Below, in pieces: positions 37,043 to 44,396 of a DNA stretch of 64,000 nucleotides. This DNA is from Paludibacter sp. (lineage in GTDB: Bacteria; Bacteroidota; Bacteroidia; Bacteroidales; Paludibacteraceae). A model generated the notes under the pieces. It was not told the origin of the DNA. It saw only the letters and a list, made by a program, of their open reading frames with translations, and did no database searches. The stretch is taken from assembly GCA_010365115.1 (NCBI GenBank), contig JAAFGX010000002.1, positions 1-64,000 on the forward strand, written 5' to 3'. Both the position numbers and the translations under genes were made by a program. How positions within the stretch are numbered: the first letter of the stretch is position 1; the number at the start of each line of letters is the position of its first letter.

Positions 37043-37094
37043 TTGAATAATAATCACTTGATTTAATAATTTAAATCAAGTGATTATTATTCAA
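37043..37094 (-). terminator. Long perfect AT-rich hairpin after ric
   Basis: A 24-bp arm 'ttgaataataatcacttgat' (plus 'ttaa') is followed by a taat loop and its exact reverse complement. It lies 53 bases after the ric stop on the minus strand. It likely serves as the operon terminator, although no U-run follows; a perfect stem this long could also be a mobile-element relic. Confidence 0.6.
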
Positions 37095-37147: not shown

Positions 37148-37852
37148 TCAAATCTGATTTCGTGCAAGAGCTAGTGATTTAGGATACAAAATATTATTTT
37201 CGAGGTGGACGTGAATATGCAAATCGTCTTCAAATTCCTCCAACAGTTTATAGGTAACAAAATATGTGTTGCATCCATCACTTGGCACAAGATAATTTTT
37301 GCTCAAAGTGTTTATTTTGTCCATAGCACCACCTGCAAATTCATGTTCATTCGACATTCTTTTGATTTCAGATACGATGGTTGCTTTTGACATTGGACTA
37401 TTTGTTTGCATCAAATCTTTAATTGCTGGAAATAAAACTTCTTCTTCGTTTTTTAGATGTTGTAAAAGTTCAGAATTTATTTGATAAAATAATGAAGCTA
37501 TTTCAGATAATTCCGGATGATGCGAACCATGAACTTCCGCAATTTTCTGAGTATATGCTTTTAACTGAGGCAAGAGTCTCAAAACAGTTTTATGATGTGT
37601 ATTGACAATATAGTCGCATAAAAAATCTAAACTCCATTGGTTGAAATCATGAGATGCATCTTTATTAGAATTTTTAAGTTCATTTAATTTACTTTCGAGG
37701 GTTGAAATGTCTATTTTTTTGTCATTACAAGCCTGTTCTAAACTCTGATTTCCGCCGCAGCAAAAATCTATTCCGGCATTTTTAAATATTTCCGCCGCCC
37801 TGAAATCATTTGTAACAATTTCACCTATTTTTATTGTTTTGTAATTATCCAT
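37148..37852 (-). CDS. ric: RIC-family di-iron protein for repair of iron-sulfur clusters (ScdA/YtfE)
   Basis: The 234-residue protein starts with the DUF542/ScdA-N domain ('GEIVTNDFRAAEIFKNAGIDFCCGGNQSLEQAC'), which carries the conserved Cys pair. A hemerythrin-like domain follows with His/Glu iron ligands ('YIVNTHHKTVLR', 'HGSHHPELSEI', 'HLKNEEEVLFPAI', 'EHEFAGGAMDKI', 'DLHIHVHLENNILYP'). RIC proteins repair Fe-S clusters damaged by nitric oxide or peroxide. It is the last gene of an Rrf2-cupin-BFD-ric operon and overlaps the ferredoxin gene by 8 bases. Confidence 0.95.
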   Translation of the reverse strand: MDNYKTIKIGEIVTNDFRAAEIFKNAGIDFCCGGNQSLEQACNDKKIDISTLESKLNELKNSNKDASHDFNQWSLDFLCDYIVNTHHKTVLRLLPQLKAYTQKIAEVHGSHHPELSEIASLFYQINSELLQHLKNEEEVLFPAIKDLMQTNSPMSKATIVSEIKRMSNEHEFAGGAMDKINTLSKNYLVPSDGCNTYFVTYKLLEEFEDDLHIHVHLENNILYPKSLALARNQI

Positions 37853-38033
37853 TTTTGCTAATTATTTCATTTATAATTTCTTCAATATCAGGAATACAAC
37901 TGCCACAAACTGTTCCGGCATTTGTTTCATCCTGTACTTCTTCTACTGTTTTTAAATTCTTTATTTTAATAGCTGTTACAATTTCGCTTTTCATAATATT
38001 GAGGCAACTACAAATTTCAATATCTTTTTCCAT
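37845..38033 (-). CDS. BFD-like [2Fe-2S] protein
   Basis: The 62-residue protein has four Cys at 8, 10, 43 and 46 ('EICSCLNIM', 'TVCGSCIPDIEEI'). This is the CxC-x32-CxxC layout of bacterioferritin-associated ferredoxin domains. It probably carries electrons or iron for ric, with which it overlaps by 8 bases (translational coupling). It is smaller than a classic ferredoxin but normal for BFD. Confidence 0.9.
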   Translation of the reverse strand: MEKDIEICSCLNIMKSEIVTAIKIKNLKTVEEVQDETNAGTVCGSCIPDIEEIINEIISKNG

Positions 38034-38040
38034 ACGTTAT

Positions 38041-38406
38041 TTAACTTGACTTGAGAATGTTTTGGATTGCTTGTTTGTTTTGAGTGTTAGTTGGTTTTGG
38101 CGTTTTCACTACCAATACCCTGAAATCTGCATTTCCCTCGTTATAAAGGCAATGGGGGATGTTTTTAGGACTATCAACGAGCATATCTTTGGTTACGGTC
38201 TGCTTTTCGTTGCCAATTTCCACAATTCCTTCACCTTCTAAAATGTAAAAAAACACATCTACGGGAGTTGCATGTTTCTTTAAGCATTCACCTGCTTTCA
38301 GCACAATATGAACGACCTGTACATTTTCATTTTCATGGATTTTTCTGGCGTCAACTCCATGTGGATTTTTAACCGTTTCAACTCCTTTAAAACTTATCGT
38401 TTTCAT
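38041..38406 (-). CDS. Small cupin-domain protein
   Basis: The 121-residue protein is a single cupin barrel. It has 'LKAGECLKKHATPVDVFFYILEGEGIVEIG' (first cupin motif, with one His-type ligand) and 'VDSPKNIPHCLYNEGNADFRVLVVK' (second motif with His). Its substrate is unknown. Its place between an Rrf2 regulator and the BFD/ric genes, 7 bases before the former, suggests a role in iron or NO stress. Confidence 0.85.
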   Translation of the reverse strand: MKTISFKGVETVKNPHGVDARKIHENENVQVVHIVLKAGECLKKHATPVDVFFYILEGEGIVEIGNEKQTVTKDMLVDSPKNIPHCLYNEGNADFRVLVVKTPKPTNTQNKQAIQNILKSS

Positions 38407-38448
38407 TTTATTGTAAATTATTTTTAAAAATATAAGGGAATAATAAAT

Positions 38449-38468
38449 GCTACCTCAGTATAGTATAT
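38449..38468 (-). promoter_or_regulatory. Candidate regulator half-sites before the cupin gene
   Basis: The plus strand has 'atgctacctcagtatagtat', with an ATRCTA-N8-TAGYAT arrangement at its ends. It shares 'ctacctc' with the dyad in front of the Rrf2 gene. It could be a second binding site of the same regulator. Confidence 0.35.
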
Positions 38469-38481
38469 ATAGATAAAAAAA

Positions 38482-38895
38482 TTAGTATCTCATTATTTTA
38501 TCAAAGTTCAAATTTGACAATTTTGTTTCACGAAACAATTTGTTTAAATCGGTTCTTACTACCTGCCAATTGTCATGCATAGCGCAAGGGTTTGTGCATG
38601 AGCACTTTTCAAATCCCAACAAACATCCGTTCAGTTTGTCCATTCCTTCAACAGAATCAATTATATCATACAAAAGGATGTCATTTATGCTTTTTGTAAA
38701 TGTATAGCCACCGTCTCTGCCTTGAACGCTTCGTATAAATCCCGATTTTGACAAATCGGTCATCAAACGGCGCAAGTATTTGTCAGATACATTCAATTCC
38801 TTCACCAACTGTTTTGCAGTGTACAATAGTGATGGCTCTTTTGCCATAAAGATCAATATTCGTAATGCGTATTCAGATGTTTTGGATAATTTCAT
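38482..38895 (-). CDS. Rrf2-family regulator with Fe-S-type Cys cluster (NsrR/IscR-like)
   Basis: The 137-residue protein has the Rrf2 winged helix ('KTSEYALRILIFMAKEP', 'TAKQLVKELNVSDKYLRRLMTDLSKSGFIRSVQGRDGGY'). A Cys cluster at 91, 98, 100 and 104 ('GCLLGFEKCSCTNPC') fits binding of an Fe-S cluster that senses NO or redox state, as in NsrR. Being first in the operon with ric, it likely controls nitrosative-stress defence. A near-perfect 14-bp dyad overlaps its promoter (38899-38936), so autoregulation is plausible. Whether it is NsrR proper cannot be told from sequence alone. Confidence 0.9.
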   Translation of the reverse strand: MKLSKTSEYALRILIFMAKEPSLLYTAKQLVKELNVSDKYLRRLMTDLSKSGFIRSVQGRDGGYTFTKSINDILLYDIIDSVEGMDKLNGCLLGFEKCSCTNPCAMHDNWQVVRTDLNKLFRETKLSNLNFDKIMRY

Positions 38896-38898
38896 TAT

Positions 38899-38936
38899 AT
38901 ACTACCTCTTTGTATTATATTGCAAAGAAATAGTAT
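38899..38936 (-). promoter_or_regulatory. Operator-like dyad before the Rrf2 gene
   Basis: Two 14-base arms ('atactacctctttg' and 'caaagaaatagtat') match at 12 of 14 positions as an inverted repeat, with a 10-base spacer. The left end lies 4 bases from the start codon. The minus-strand TTTCTTTG inside one arm could be the -7 box, so binding would block transcription. Confidence 0.6.
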
Positions 38937-39032
38937 TTTTGTGGGATGTGCAAGAAATTTGAAATGTTTAACGCAATTATTTTTATTGGAAAATGAAAAA
39001 TGCGTTTGAAAATTATCTGGTAATTCAGATTT

Positions 39033-40466: not shown

Positions 40467-41540
40467 TTATCTGAAAATCATAAATTTTCCGACTTTGCGC
40501 TTATTGGCAGTATAAACAACTATTAGGTACAATCCATTTTTTAGATCGGCAACAGAAGTTGTACCATTGGATGAAAATTTATCTGTTTGCAGTAGAATTC
40601 CATTGATGCTTAGAATAAAGTAAGTTGCTTCTTCAGGTTTGCTCAGTTTTACAGTAATAAGGTTTGTTGCTGCGTTAAATTTAGCAGTGAAAGTACTTTT
40701 CGTTTCGGCAGGACCAACACCAACCGACCATGATTCTATCATTCTGTTTCCCCAAATAAATTCAGCCAATTCTGGATGGTCAATATAGGGATTTCTATTG
40801 TGTTGAAAAGAATAAACGGCATTGTTCCGCTTGATTTCTTTGTCGCTCACCATATCCTGACTATTCCACTTTAACAACAAATTCACCGCATAAGGTTTAA
40901 AAGTAGGATACGTATTGGTATAAAGCATACTGGAAGTTCCAAGGCTTTGCCAAATTGGAGCATAATTTTCGTAACAGGTTACCATGTACATATAAGTTCG
41001 TGCAAAGTCGCCTTTATACTCGTCAATCGGCTCAAAAACAGTCCCATTATAACCCGGAAAAGTATTTGGACCCACTTTTACAATGGTATTCGGAAGAATG
41101 GAAGAACCATCTGCTTCGCCTAAAGCATAGTTCGACTTAGCTGAATTGGCGTTAGCATCCGAAGGATAAAGATTATGTAAATCGGAACCTATCGGTTCAG
41201 AATTCACCTCATCGGATGAAATGCCAAACCAACTTTTGGGCATGGAGTGCTCGCGGTTCATTCCGCCTCCACTCCAAACGGTTCGTTTGTAATTGGAATA
41301 CATATCCCAAAAATATCCGTTGGGATGCCAGTCGGTAGTACGAAAATAAGTACTCGAACTGTAGTATTCAAGCTGCGTATGGTTTTTTATTGTATTGTAC
41401 AAAGCCGTTTTTAAAGCAGCCTGATTTTTTCCTTCGGCCAACGAATAATATCCTTCCGGTTCTTGCGCCCAAAGTTGGGTAGCAAGTACCAGCATTAAAC
41501 TGAAGAGTATTCCTTTATAGATGTGCCGGATAATTTCCAT
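40467..41540 (-). CDS. Secreted endonuclease I family protein, paralogue 1, T9SS sorted
   Basis: The 357-residue protein has a signal peptide ending QLWAQ. An endonuclease I (PF04231) domain follows (about 25-260), with catalytic-site segment 'MNREHSMPKSWFG', then 'SDLHNLYPSDANANSAKSN' and 'HNRNPYIDHPELAEFIWG'. The C-terminus resembles a T9SS sorting domain ('FSSNGTTSVADLKNGLYLIVVYT', ending 'KVGKFMIFR'). The family degrades DNA non-specifically using a His-metal finger. It is the most downstream of four adjacent paralogues and 15 bases from the next. Confidence 0.92.
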   Translation of the reverse strand: MEIIRHIYKGILFSLMLVLATQLWAQEPEGYYSLAEGKNQAALKTALYNTIKNHTQLEYYSSSTYFRTTDWHPNGYFWDMYSNYKRTVWSGGGMNREHSMPKSWFGISSDEVNSEPIGSDLHNLYPSDANANSAKSNYALGEADGSSILPNTIVKVGPNTFPGYNGTVFEPIDEYKGDFARTYMYMVTCYENYAPIWQSLGTSSMLYTNTYPTFKPYAVNLLLKWNSQDMVSDKEIKRNNAVYSFQHNRNPYIDHPELAEFIWGNRMIESWSVGVGPAETKSTFTAKFNAATNLITVKLSKPEEATYFILSINGILLQTDKFSSNGTTSVADLKNGLYLIVVYTANKRKVGKFMIFR

Positions 41541-41555
41541 TTTATTACGAGATAA

Positions 41556-44396
41556 TTATTTCAAGAATTTTCCTGTAAAGGAATATTGATTATTTTGAAC
41601 ACGTAAAATGAAAATTCCAGTTTGAGGAAATGAAATATCCATTTGACTGGCATTTGCAATGATTTTATAAAGACCGATTCCGGTAAGCGAGAAAATCTGA
41701 ATCGATTCATTTCCTTGTAAACCAATGACCGAAAGCTGATTATTTTTCGAAATAATCTTTATTGATTGTGTAGTTTCTTTTTTAATTTTGTTGTTCAATA
41801 AAGTTTGAACCGCTATTGTTTCGGAAGGTAAAGAAACGGCAGACCCCAATGTAGCACGTACATTATAATAATACAATTGGTTTTCATTTAAACCGGTAAT
41901 AACCCCACGAGTTGTTGAAAACGGTATGTCTTTTTGAATGAAAACGGTTTCCTGACCTCCATAAGTAGCTGATACATCGTCTATAGCAATATTTCCACTT
42001 CCCACTTTGTTGTATTTAAAACGCAAAGCTGTAATATTTTGCGTTGGAGTAAATGTGTATACTGGATATATTTTGGAAGTAGTACCTGCATAAGGAATGC
42101 TGTCAATCTTTAACCAATCCAATCCATTGAACCCATGCACTACAAACGAAGAACCTGCACTCGCCGAAGCATATCTGTACATATATTTAAAAGTTGAAAC
42201 TGGATTCGGATATACTTTAGTTTGAAGTATTTCGCCAGCCAATTTTAAATTTATCGAAGGTATGGCTACGCCAGAACTGGTGGCTGAGGTGTAAGTTCCA
42301 CTTGCAGTTCCGCTCCATCCAATTGGCAATGGAGTTCCGTTTGATCCCACATTATTGAATCCTTCAATAACTGTAGTATAAGCTGCACCTTTAAGTTCAA
42401 ACACATTTATTAAATATCCGTTTGCAAAAAGTGTTTCTTCCCAGTTGGCAGTAAAACCGCTCGTGTGAATATCGGTTTCCAGCATTAGAATTGGAATATC
42501 CAAGGTTGAAGTATGCAATTGCATGGTATTAATTGCTGCAACATTTCCTCCTGGTTTTATTGCTTCTACCGAATAGGTATAGGTGTTTTCGGGCGATAAG
42601 TTCTGAATGGGAAATTGGGTGGTTTTTCCTGTCAGCACATTTTGAATAACGGTTGGTTCGCTAGTACTGAAGTTTATTTGATGATTCTTCAACATGGAAT
42701 AAGAATCAATAGGTAATTTTGTCCATTGCTTTTCGTTATAATTCTTTGATGGATGTGTAACATTTGATTTTCTTTCCAAACTAATATCTTTACCCCAATC
42801 ATTCGCTGCACCTGCATCAGCAATTCCCACCTGATCAATAATTACACCCCCGCGAGTTAAGATAACTGCATCGTTACCGTTGAAATTAATAAGCGAGTCC
42901 AGTTTTTGTGCTATTGAAGTTAAAGCAGTAGTTGTACATCTGCTATTCACAAGAATATAACTTGAGTTATTTTGCAAAGTTCCGGTTAATTGAATTCCTG
43001 AACCAAAATCACCTGCACCGTTCCATTGTTTTAAAACACTATATTTCGATAAATCTACAGTTTTGCCTGTGCCATTATATATTTCCAATGCTTTATTCCA
43101 ACTGTCGCCTTCCACGTAAGCCGAAATTATCAAATCACCCGCTTGTTTGTCGCCCTGATACACCTTCAATCTATAATCTGTAGCCAAAGGATCGGAAATC
43201 CATTGCAAGGTTCCACCTATAGGCGAAATCTGGTCGGGTTCAAGGGTAATAAAATCAGCAGAAGCCAGTGCTTTTATAGGAATGCGAAGACTTTCCGACA
43301 AACCGCCGCCCTGAATCAGAAGCGTATCGCGAACTAAACCGGAAGTGTTGGGCGTGAAAGTAATTGTCAAATCAATTCCATTTAAAGCAGTTGCAACAGG
43401 AACAGTGCTAGTCGACAATGATAAAGCGGCATTGTTTTTAATAAATGATAGTTGAACATTGGAATTAATATTAACTCCCTGAATATGTAAAACTTGCGAG
43501 CGTTTATCATTTTGCAAAATCACTCCAAAATCCATGGTAATTCCACGACGAGGAGCAACCAGAAAAGGATTTATTTCTACCGGGAAAGGATAAACTTTAG
43601 TGCTGTCGGCGCCCCAGATATATTCAGCCAAATCGGGATAATCGATAAACGGATTTCGATTGCCTTGAATATTATAAATCGTTTCTATTCTTTTCAATTC
43701 TTTTGCACTTACAGGATCCTGGCGATGCCATTTCAACAATAAATCCAATGCCCACGGTTTCCAAACTGGATACGTATTATTGTTCAACATGGGCGATTGC
43801 CAAAGTTGTGAGAAATTTTCATAAATAGTGGAAATATAAAAATACGAACGCGCAAAATCACCTTTATATTCGTCGGCAGGTTCAAAACATTTGTCGGTAT
43901 ATACTGTTCCAAAGCCGTTGGTGCCAATTTTTGTAACTCCATTGTAAAGTGTTGGTGCGCCTGTGACTTCGCCCAAAGGCAAATTACTTTTGGTAATATT
44001 GGTGGTGGCATCGGCAGGATATAAATGAAATAAATCTTTGTAGGCATTATTATCATAAGCTCCCCACCAACTTTTGGGGAAAGAATGCTCAATGTGCATA
44101 CCTTCAATCGACCAGAATCCACTGAAAGTACGAACTGTGTTGGAATACATATCCATCACCGTATTGTCAGTATTGCGGTCGGTGTAGTAAAACCCTTCCC
44201 ATGTAAAACCCGGGCCGCTGCCATAATATAATTCTTTCATGGGAGCACAATACGTATGAAGCGCAGTCTTTAATTCAGCTTTCTTTTTGTTTTGGGCAAA
44301 GTAATAATAACCTGCAGGAACAGTAGCAAAAACAGTGGAAAATGCCAGAATGGAAATTCCAAAAAACAATAAAAACTTAATACTGAATTTAGACAT
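41556..44396 (-). CDS. Secreted multidomain endonuclease I with lamin-tail domain, paralogue 2, T9SS sorted
   Basis: The 946-residue protein has a signal peptide (FSTVFA). The endonuclease I domain (about 25-270) shows 'MHIEHSFPKSWWG', 'LFHLYPADATTNITKSN' and 'GNRNPFIDYPDLAEYIWG'. A HYDIN/ASPM-like beta domain follows (about 275-390), then a lamin-tail domain (about 425-575; 'GDSWNKALEIYNGTGKTVDLSKYSVLKQWNG'). An Fn3-like and galactose-binding-like part and a C-terminal sorting domain ('IQIFSLTGIGLYKI', 'TGIFILRVQNN') complete it. The lamin-tail domain is common in secreted nucleases and may aid substrate or surface binding. It starts 4 bases after paralogue 3. Confidence 0.92.
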   Translation of the reverse strand: MSKFSIKFLLFFGISILAFSTVFATVPAGYYYFAQNKKKAELKTALHTYCAPMKELYYGSGPGFTWEGFYYTDRNTDNTVMDMYSNTVRTFSGFWSIEGMHIEHSFPKSWWGAYDNNAYKDLFHLYPADATTNITKSNLPLGEVTGAPTLYNGVTKIGTNGFGTVYTDKCFEPADEYKGDFARSYFYISTIYENFSQLWQSPMLNNNTYPVWKPWALDLLLKWHRQDPVSAKELKRIETIYNIQGNRNPFIDYPDLAEYIWGADSTKVYPFPVEINPFLVAPRRGITMDFGVILQNDKRSQVLHIQGVNINSNVQLSFIKNNAALSLSTSTVPVATALNGIDLTITFTPNTSGLVRDTLLIQGGGLSESLRIPIKALASADFITLEPDQISPIGGTLQWISDPLATDYRLKVYQGDKQAGDLIISAYVEGDSWNKALEIYNGTGKTVDLSKYSVLKQWNGAGDFGSGIQLTGTLQNNSSYILVNSRCTTTALTSIAQKLDSLINFNGNDAVILTRGGVIIDQVGIADAGAANDWGKDISLERKSNVTHPSKNYNEKQWTKLPIDSYSMLKNHQINFSTSEPTVIQNVLTGKTTQFPIQNLSPENTYTYSVEAIKPGGNVAAINTMQLHTSTLDIPILMLETDIHTSGFTANWEETLFANGYLINVFELKGAAYTTVIEGFNNVGSNGTPLPIGWSGTASGTYTSATSSGVAIPSINLKLAGEILQTKVYPNPVSTFKYMYRYASASAGSSFVVHGFNGLDWLKIDSIPYAGTTSKIYPVYTFTPTQNITALRFKYNKVGSGNIAIDDVSATYGGQETVFIQKDIPFSTTRGVITGLNENQLYYYNVRATLGSAVSLPSETIAVQTLLNNKIKKETTQSIKIISKNNQLSVIGLQGNESIQIFSLTGIGLYKIIANASQMDISFPQTGIFILRVQNNQYSFTGKFLK

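Follow-up and report, generated by a model that had tools for sequence, protein, structure and literature searches.

A probable NsrR-like, nitric oxide-responsive repressor of Bacteroidota and its paired operators in a Paludibacter repair operon

What controls a compact set of iron-sulfur repair genes in Paludibacter sp., and in answer to which signal, is the question raised by the locus described here. Within the window (the whole stretch of 64,000 nucleotides that was analysed) four genes follow one another on the minus strand, and they had been predicted to encode a cysteine-cluster regulator, a cupin, a [2Fe-2S] protein and an iron-cluster repair protein. Genes, positions and families are as claimed (Rrf2, Cupin_2, BFD and RIC; Table 1), the largest gap being the 75 nt that separate rrf2 from the cupin gene; 7 nt then precede the BFD gene, which overlaps that of RIC by 8 nt. 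Our analysis suggests that the set is probably governed by an NsrR-like, nitric oxide (NO)-responsive repressor, representing a repressor subfamily of Bacteroidota. The regulator carries an Rrf2 domain, of the winged-helix fold (PF02082, 100 bits). RIC exceeds the NCBIfam cut-off for its family (204.7 bits), associates a ScdA_N domain (PF04405) with a hemerythrin domain (PF01814) and resembles the solved structures of ScdA and YtfE (PDB 9r7j, ScdA, E=5e-34). The four cysteines of the BFD protein, as read from its sequence, are C8, C10, C43 and C46. A similar reading of the cupin finds only two histidines at the motif positions, the complete His3-Glu metal motif being absent; cupin genes 73–81% identical to it come after rrf2 in genomes of the same genus. 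Downstream of the RIC gene an inverted repeat is followed by sufB, sufC and sufD. By its position alone this repeat is a possible terminator; the minus strand shows no clear T-run there.

Table 1. Features of the rrf2 locus, in the order of transcription (positions are those of the window)
Feature	Position	Strand	Description	Basis
Candidate −33 element	38951–38954	minus	CTTG, 20 nt before the −7 box	Sequence reading; putative role
Candidate −7 element	38923–38930	minus	TTTCTTTG, Bacteroidetes TAnnTTTG type	TTTG recurrence in relatives; putative promoter role
Dyad of the original prediction	38899–38936		38 bp, overlap of O1 and the −7 region	At chance level
Operator O1	38899–38918	minus	ATAATAC-N6-GTAGTAT, 3 nt upstream of the rrf2 start codon	Orthologue alignment; 30.1 bits
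rrf2	38482–38895	minus	Rrf2-family, putative NsrR-like Fe-S cluster repressor, 137 aa	Pfam/NCBIfam, orthologue alignment, tree
T7 tract	38475–38481	minus	Directly 3′ of the rrf2 stop codon (38482–38484), 8 nt before O2	
Operator O2	38447–38466	minus	ATACTAT-N6-GTAGCAT, between rrf2 and the cupin gene	PWM, 23.6 bits
Cupin gene	38041–38406	minus	121 aa	PF07883 (Cupin_2), 47 bits
BFD-like gene	37845–38033	minus	[2Fe-2S] protein, 62 aa, C-x-C ... C-x2-C	PF04324 (Fer2_BFD), 60 bits
RIC/ScdA gene	37148–37852	minus	Di-iron Fe-S repair protein, 234 aa	TIGR03652, 250 bits
Inverted repeat	37043–37094		Perfect, AT-rich, 24 bp, 4-nt loop, RIC–sufB interval	Computed from sequence

Where the regulator would bind is best seen by comparison with relatives. 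The original prediction, real in outline and right in spirit, misplaced the operator. It had retained as such a near-perfect inverted repeat covering the promoter, and this dyad exists: its 19-nt arms pair at 15 of 19 positions and its outer 14 nt at 12 of 14. As an operator, however, it had to be rejected, since dinucleotide shuffling of the 150 nt upstream produced an equally good dyad 13 times in 300, and since it is not conserved, the best of 70 relatives pairing at 12 of 19 positions over the same 38 bp. The predicted true operator is shorter and lies inside the dyad, with its core centred elsewhere. Aligned upstream regions of rrf2 orthologues display the conserved consensus ATAMTAC-N6-GTAGYAT. 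It is bordered by A-rich and T-rich sequence, and in most cases 2–5 nt separate it from the start codon. This consensus is found exactly in 31 of 81 distinct orthologue loci and with at most two mismatches in 64, while shuffles give a mean of 0.37 for the latter, counts to be read knowing that the seed pattern was derived partly from the loci afterwards counted, and that these loci are phylogenetically related and not independent. A spacer of 6 nt is clearly favoured, weaker matches with spacers of 3 and 9 being taken as partial self-overlap of the motif. The promoter consensus of Bacteroidetes combines −7 elements of the TAnnTTTG type with −33 elements, and TTTG recurs at similar distances upstream of O1 in relatives; the outer arm of the rejected dyad overlaps the likely −7 box. 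Two further exact matches to a looser pattern in the whole genome, at C67 (inside a menB-like gene) and at C92 (with no obvious NO gene closely downstream), were taken as chance.

A site related to that of the promoter had also been reported before the cupin gene, and this one is real. With a position weight matrix (PWM) trained exclusively on O1 sites from other genomes, the window yields O1 and O2, then a next best score of 10.6 bits, nothing else exceeding 11 bits and no operator being found near sufB. In 51 of 76 loci the interval that follows rrf2 holds a site of the O2 type, where control stretches of equal size do so in 0.13% of cases, and the site before the cupin gene is, by sequence, a second copy of the O1 operator. 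A scan of 295 genomes of the order, made independently of rrf2, returned 21 exact sites, distributed over 15 genomes, compared with a single one for a reversed control pattern. Nineteen of them flank an rrf2 orthologue, mostly with an adjoining gene for a quinol-type NO reductase (qNOR); the other two precede genes for a NapA-like nitrate reductase (L237 5381) and a PepSY-type membrane protein (L238 1796), possible additional members of the regulon. The operator was absent from distant Rrf2 loci with an adjoining RIC gene, which fall outside the clade (L023–L025). To judge from linkage and operators alone, the sites would define a regulon of NO-detoxification genes. An autoregulated Rrf2 protein with a cysteine cluster, controlling an operon for NO and Fe-S repair, finds support, once its operator is corrected to the consensus given above.

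The company kept by rrf2 in relatives, which the original prediction missed, is telling: the orthologous regulator normally stands directly upstream of NO reductase. Downstream sequence suffices for comparison at 72 loci. The gene recognised first behind rrf2 is that of qNOR in 42 of them, belongs to a COX2-like–COX1-like pair in 12 and is a cupin gene in eight, so that an NO reductase or NOR-like oxidase comes first in 54. The identity of qNOR is given by PF22085 and by the qNORs of the PDB. PF00115 places the COX1-like protein among the heme-copper oxidases, with weak similarity to cbb3 oxidases, and its context suggests that it may act as an NO reductase. The window operon is without NO reductase, and orthology would provide its link to NO. 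In the absence of NO, a dimer of the Rrf2 protein loaded with an Fe-S cluster would bind O1, downstream of the −7 box and abutting the start codon, keeping rrf2 expression low through autoregulation. Binding at O2, the operator that ends the T7-N8-operator arrangement after the rrf2 stop codon, would turn off the genes for the cupin, BFD and RIC. NO would destroy the cluster, the repressor would leave both sites and the repair genes would be made, with RIC as the di-iron repair protein, the BFD protein as a probable partner for electrons or clusters, and the cupin made alongside them.

Residues of the regulator bear on the nature of this signal. In the alignment, C91, C98, C104 and H107 are invariant in all 80 orthologues. 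Escherichia coli IscR, an Rrf2 protein which controls isc and suf, has the same Cys3-His ligand set; it differs from the window protein by that control, by the lack of an acidic residue at position 8 and by its operators. Position 8 is E in 67 of the 80 orthologues and otherwise mostly Q, and R12 is present in 73, while NsrR from Streptomyces (ScNsrR) has D8. In structures of ScNsrR, Asp8 is the fourth cluster ligand and forms a salt bridge to Arg12 (PMC5411485), whence the window protein unites candidate ligands of the NsrR type with one of the IscR type. Its NCBIfam scores fall far short of the cut-offs for NsrR (equivalog, 52 bits for 182), IscR (56.8 bits for 207.6), RirA and the SUF regulator, and we therefore describe it as most likely working like NsrR, without filing it as NsrR. 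In a tree built from few columns, a branch with an SH-aLRT of 92 has all 80 orthologues on the same side, the E. coli NsrR and IscR proteins sitting on long branches that make their placement unreliable.

Because H107 is a ligand of the IscR type, the NO signal keeps some uncertainty, and Fe-S status or redox state is a possible alternative. The protein would then sense Fe-S supply, iron or redox in the manner of IscR, RirA or RsrR, and NO reductase and repair genes would respond since NO also damages clusters. The invariance of a histidine that is a ligand in E. coli IscR speaks for it (IscR shows CCC-H where E. coli NsrR shows CCC-K), as do RirA and IscR scores on a par with that of NsrR, and the presence of sufBCD downstream of the operon. 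Yet suf genes are outside the conserved neighbourhood of the rrf2 relatives, the window has no operator near sufB, E8 and R12 resemble D8 and R12 of NsrR, and an NO-reducing or NOR-like enzyme leads the downstream genes in three-quarters of the loci just described. We consider this alternative unlikely and retain NO-responsive repression as the probable reading.

How does such a unit compare with what is known? The NsrR regulons of Proteobacteria, Bacillus and Streptomyces (PMC1274295, PMC5411485) resemble the window system in an Rrf2 protein that carries three cysteines and, as a candidate ligand, mostly an acidic residue 8, and in a small regulon of NO-detoxification genes, predicted for the window system, that includes norB and dnrN/RIC. 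The NsrR operator, by contrast, is gATGyAT-N5-ATrCATc where the window has ATAMTAC-N6-GTAGYAT, and the window system differs further by its invariant H107, by a score under the NCBIfam NsrR cut-off and by the pairing of O1 with O2 and its T7 tract. The closest gene set described is nsrR-nsrS-nsrT of Thermus thermophilus, where the genes that follow the Rrf2/NsrR gene encode proteins with a ScdA domain and a Cupin_2 domain, next to NO reductase genes, with a separate promoter suggested after nsrR (PMC5748679). There, however, RIC is reduced to an N-terminal domain of 65 aa, BFD is lacking, the operator is CTTGACC-NN-GGTCATGG and NsrR-Th activates Pnor (PMC5748679), where the window protein would repress. 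The HcpR regulons of Bacteroides and Desulfovibrio also answer NO stress, but through a regulator of the CRP/FNR family and an unrelated operator; NO strongly induces a cupin gene that adjoins hcp in Desulfovibrio (PMC1274295, PMC5701242). A survey reported NsrR in gamma- and beta-proteobacteria, Bacillus and Streptomyces, described no NsrR regulon for Bacteroidota and assigned the NO response of Bacteroides to HcpR (PMC1274295). Rrf2 genes, many of them assigned to Bacteroidetes, have been noted near Clade II nos clusters, with no motif given (PMC6264515). In the open-access papers searched we found no description of this operator or regulator in Bacteroidota; one may exist elsewhere, for instance in subscription papers or RegPrecise entries. 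Bacteroidota would gain a clear candidate for an NO-responsive repressor, with an operator defined sharply enough to make NO-reductase and RIC regulons predictable. As a regulatory system the unit would be a variant of the NsrR kind that has a T7-operator element; the operon itself is ordinary, an accessory variant.

This element, a T tract coupled to the second operator, had escaped the original prediction. Counted from the O2 core, positions −15 to −9 are seven Ts in 37 of 52 loci and comprise at least six in 48, and the gap from the T-run to the operator core is 8 nt in 39. A run of at least six Ts accompanies O2 in 46 of the 52; it is seen in 4 of the 26 loci that lack O2 and at some 9% of 451 other stop codons, a comparison in which shared descent makes simple-table p-values overstate certainty. 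The register is held across lineages and base compositions, the tract being retained in loci with up to 54% GC. At O1 the TAnnTTTG-type box has variable spacing and seven Ts never occur in the T7 register; the solo operator sites that lead operons have no T tract either. In 396 genomes of the phylum, few of them previously used, the T7-N8-operator composite has three exact matches: one is that of the window, and each of the remaining two immediately follows an rrf2 orthologue and precedes a qNOR or a COX2-like gene. Exact matches alone were used, because the same scan at one mismatch is mostly background (34 matches listed, the reversed control matching as well), and as the tract was noticed post hoc, this phylum scan is the sole test of it made on mostly new data. 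As a side observation, a third operator preceded by a T-run lies at L101 1036, between an HD-domain gene and the cupin gene, which would fit T-tract operators accompanying internal sites in general.

This precise and widely kept arrangement may be understood in several ways. The tract is quite possibly, though at somewhat less than an even chance, the core of a second, variant promoter whose start site the repressor covers. Relative to the operator its register is nearly that of TTTG in the O1 promoter, and it is followed by G or A in 44 of 52 loci; still, neither TAnnTTTG nor a conserved upstream box is found at O2, and the tract varies less than the O1 box, both in sequence and in spacing. 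More tentatively, the composite could be a repressor-gated transcription stop placed just after the rrf2 stop codon. Basal transcription would cover rrf2, the repressor bound at O2 would halt RNA polymerase at the T tract and prevent any leak into the NO-defence genes, and NO, by removing it, would allow read-through. With the usual footprint of RNA polymerase the geometry is borderline, as the stall would come at the start of the tract and not within it. If true, Bacteroidota would widely use a terminator that needs no hairpin and is controlled by a ligand; the open-access papers searched yielded no roadblock with a U-tract. An ordinary intrinsic terminator was rejected, no hairpin being found ahead of the tract. 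It is rather improbable that the tract serves as a DNA-shape element, a narrow minor groove strengthening repressor binding: its constant distance to the operator core and its retention in GC-rich loci would fit, but it is on one side only of a palindromic site, and it is missing from O1 and from the operon-leading solo sites. That O1 and O2 would be RNA hairpins acting in attenuation or translation control, and not protein-binding DNA, is very hard to sustain: both are inverted repeats in transcribed leaders, but operator pairs show no covariation (A opposite G at pair 3–16 in 33 of 64 sites, A–C at pair 2–17 in 20, no compensation) and nothing hairpin-like precedes the T tract.

If the repressor and its sites are widely shared, the gene set of the window is not. 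The original prediction looked to conservation of the four-gene order, and this fails: rrf2-cupin-BFD-RIC occurs at the window locus only among the 72. Its suggestion of a fuller repair module than RIC alone fares better in part, as 12 of the 72 loci have a cupin in their rrf2-headed operon and BFD relatives adjoin hcp or NO-reductase genes, but none of the other loci combines cupin, BFD and RIC. Elsewhere in the order, BFD relatives lie beside hcp or beside qNOR-cupin, which makes BFD a recurrent companion of NO stress and not a random neighbour. Five loci have BFD relatives next to or near genes for Hcp, the hybrid cluster protein (L228, L232, L233, L236 and L240). The window genome's own hcp (L247), preceded by genes for a cupin and a 4Fe-4S protein, is not among the operator sites found. 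Relatives of the same genus, of which G028:C83 is the nearest in the sample, have the fuller form rrf2-cupin-HHE-(ferredoxin)-RIC-qNOR-DUF438, and at the syntenic place in G020, behind the same upstream gene, rrf2-cupin-HHE-Fd-RIC-qNOR is split over two contigs. The window operon is therefore a repair-only variant with BFD and without NO reductase. The same assembly holds a paralogous operon on contig C93 (L035, G000:C93:76000–88000), ordered rrf2-cupin-HHE-RIC-qNOR-Fd-DUF438, with an rrf2 paralogue 55% identical to that of the window. The tetranucleotide usage of this contig fits the genus (0.89); given the 7.2% contamination listed for the assembly, the operon could come from a close relative. 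A further qNOR gene lies at C93:19895. Finally, two adjacent endonuclease I-like proteins, with motifs NREHSMPKSW and HIEHSFPKSW, are encoded at 40467–44396 of the window, and G020 likewise has them upstream of its rrf2 locus (L041).
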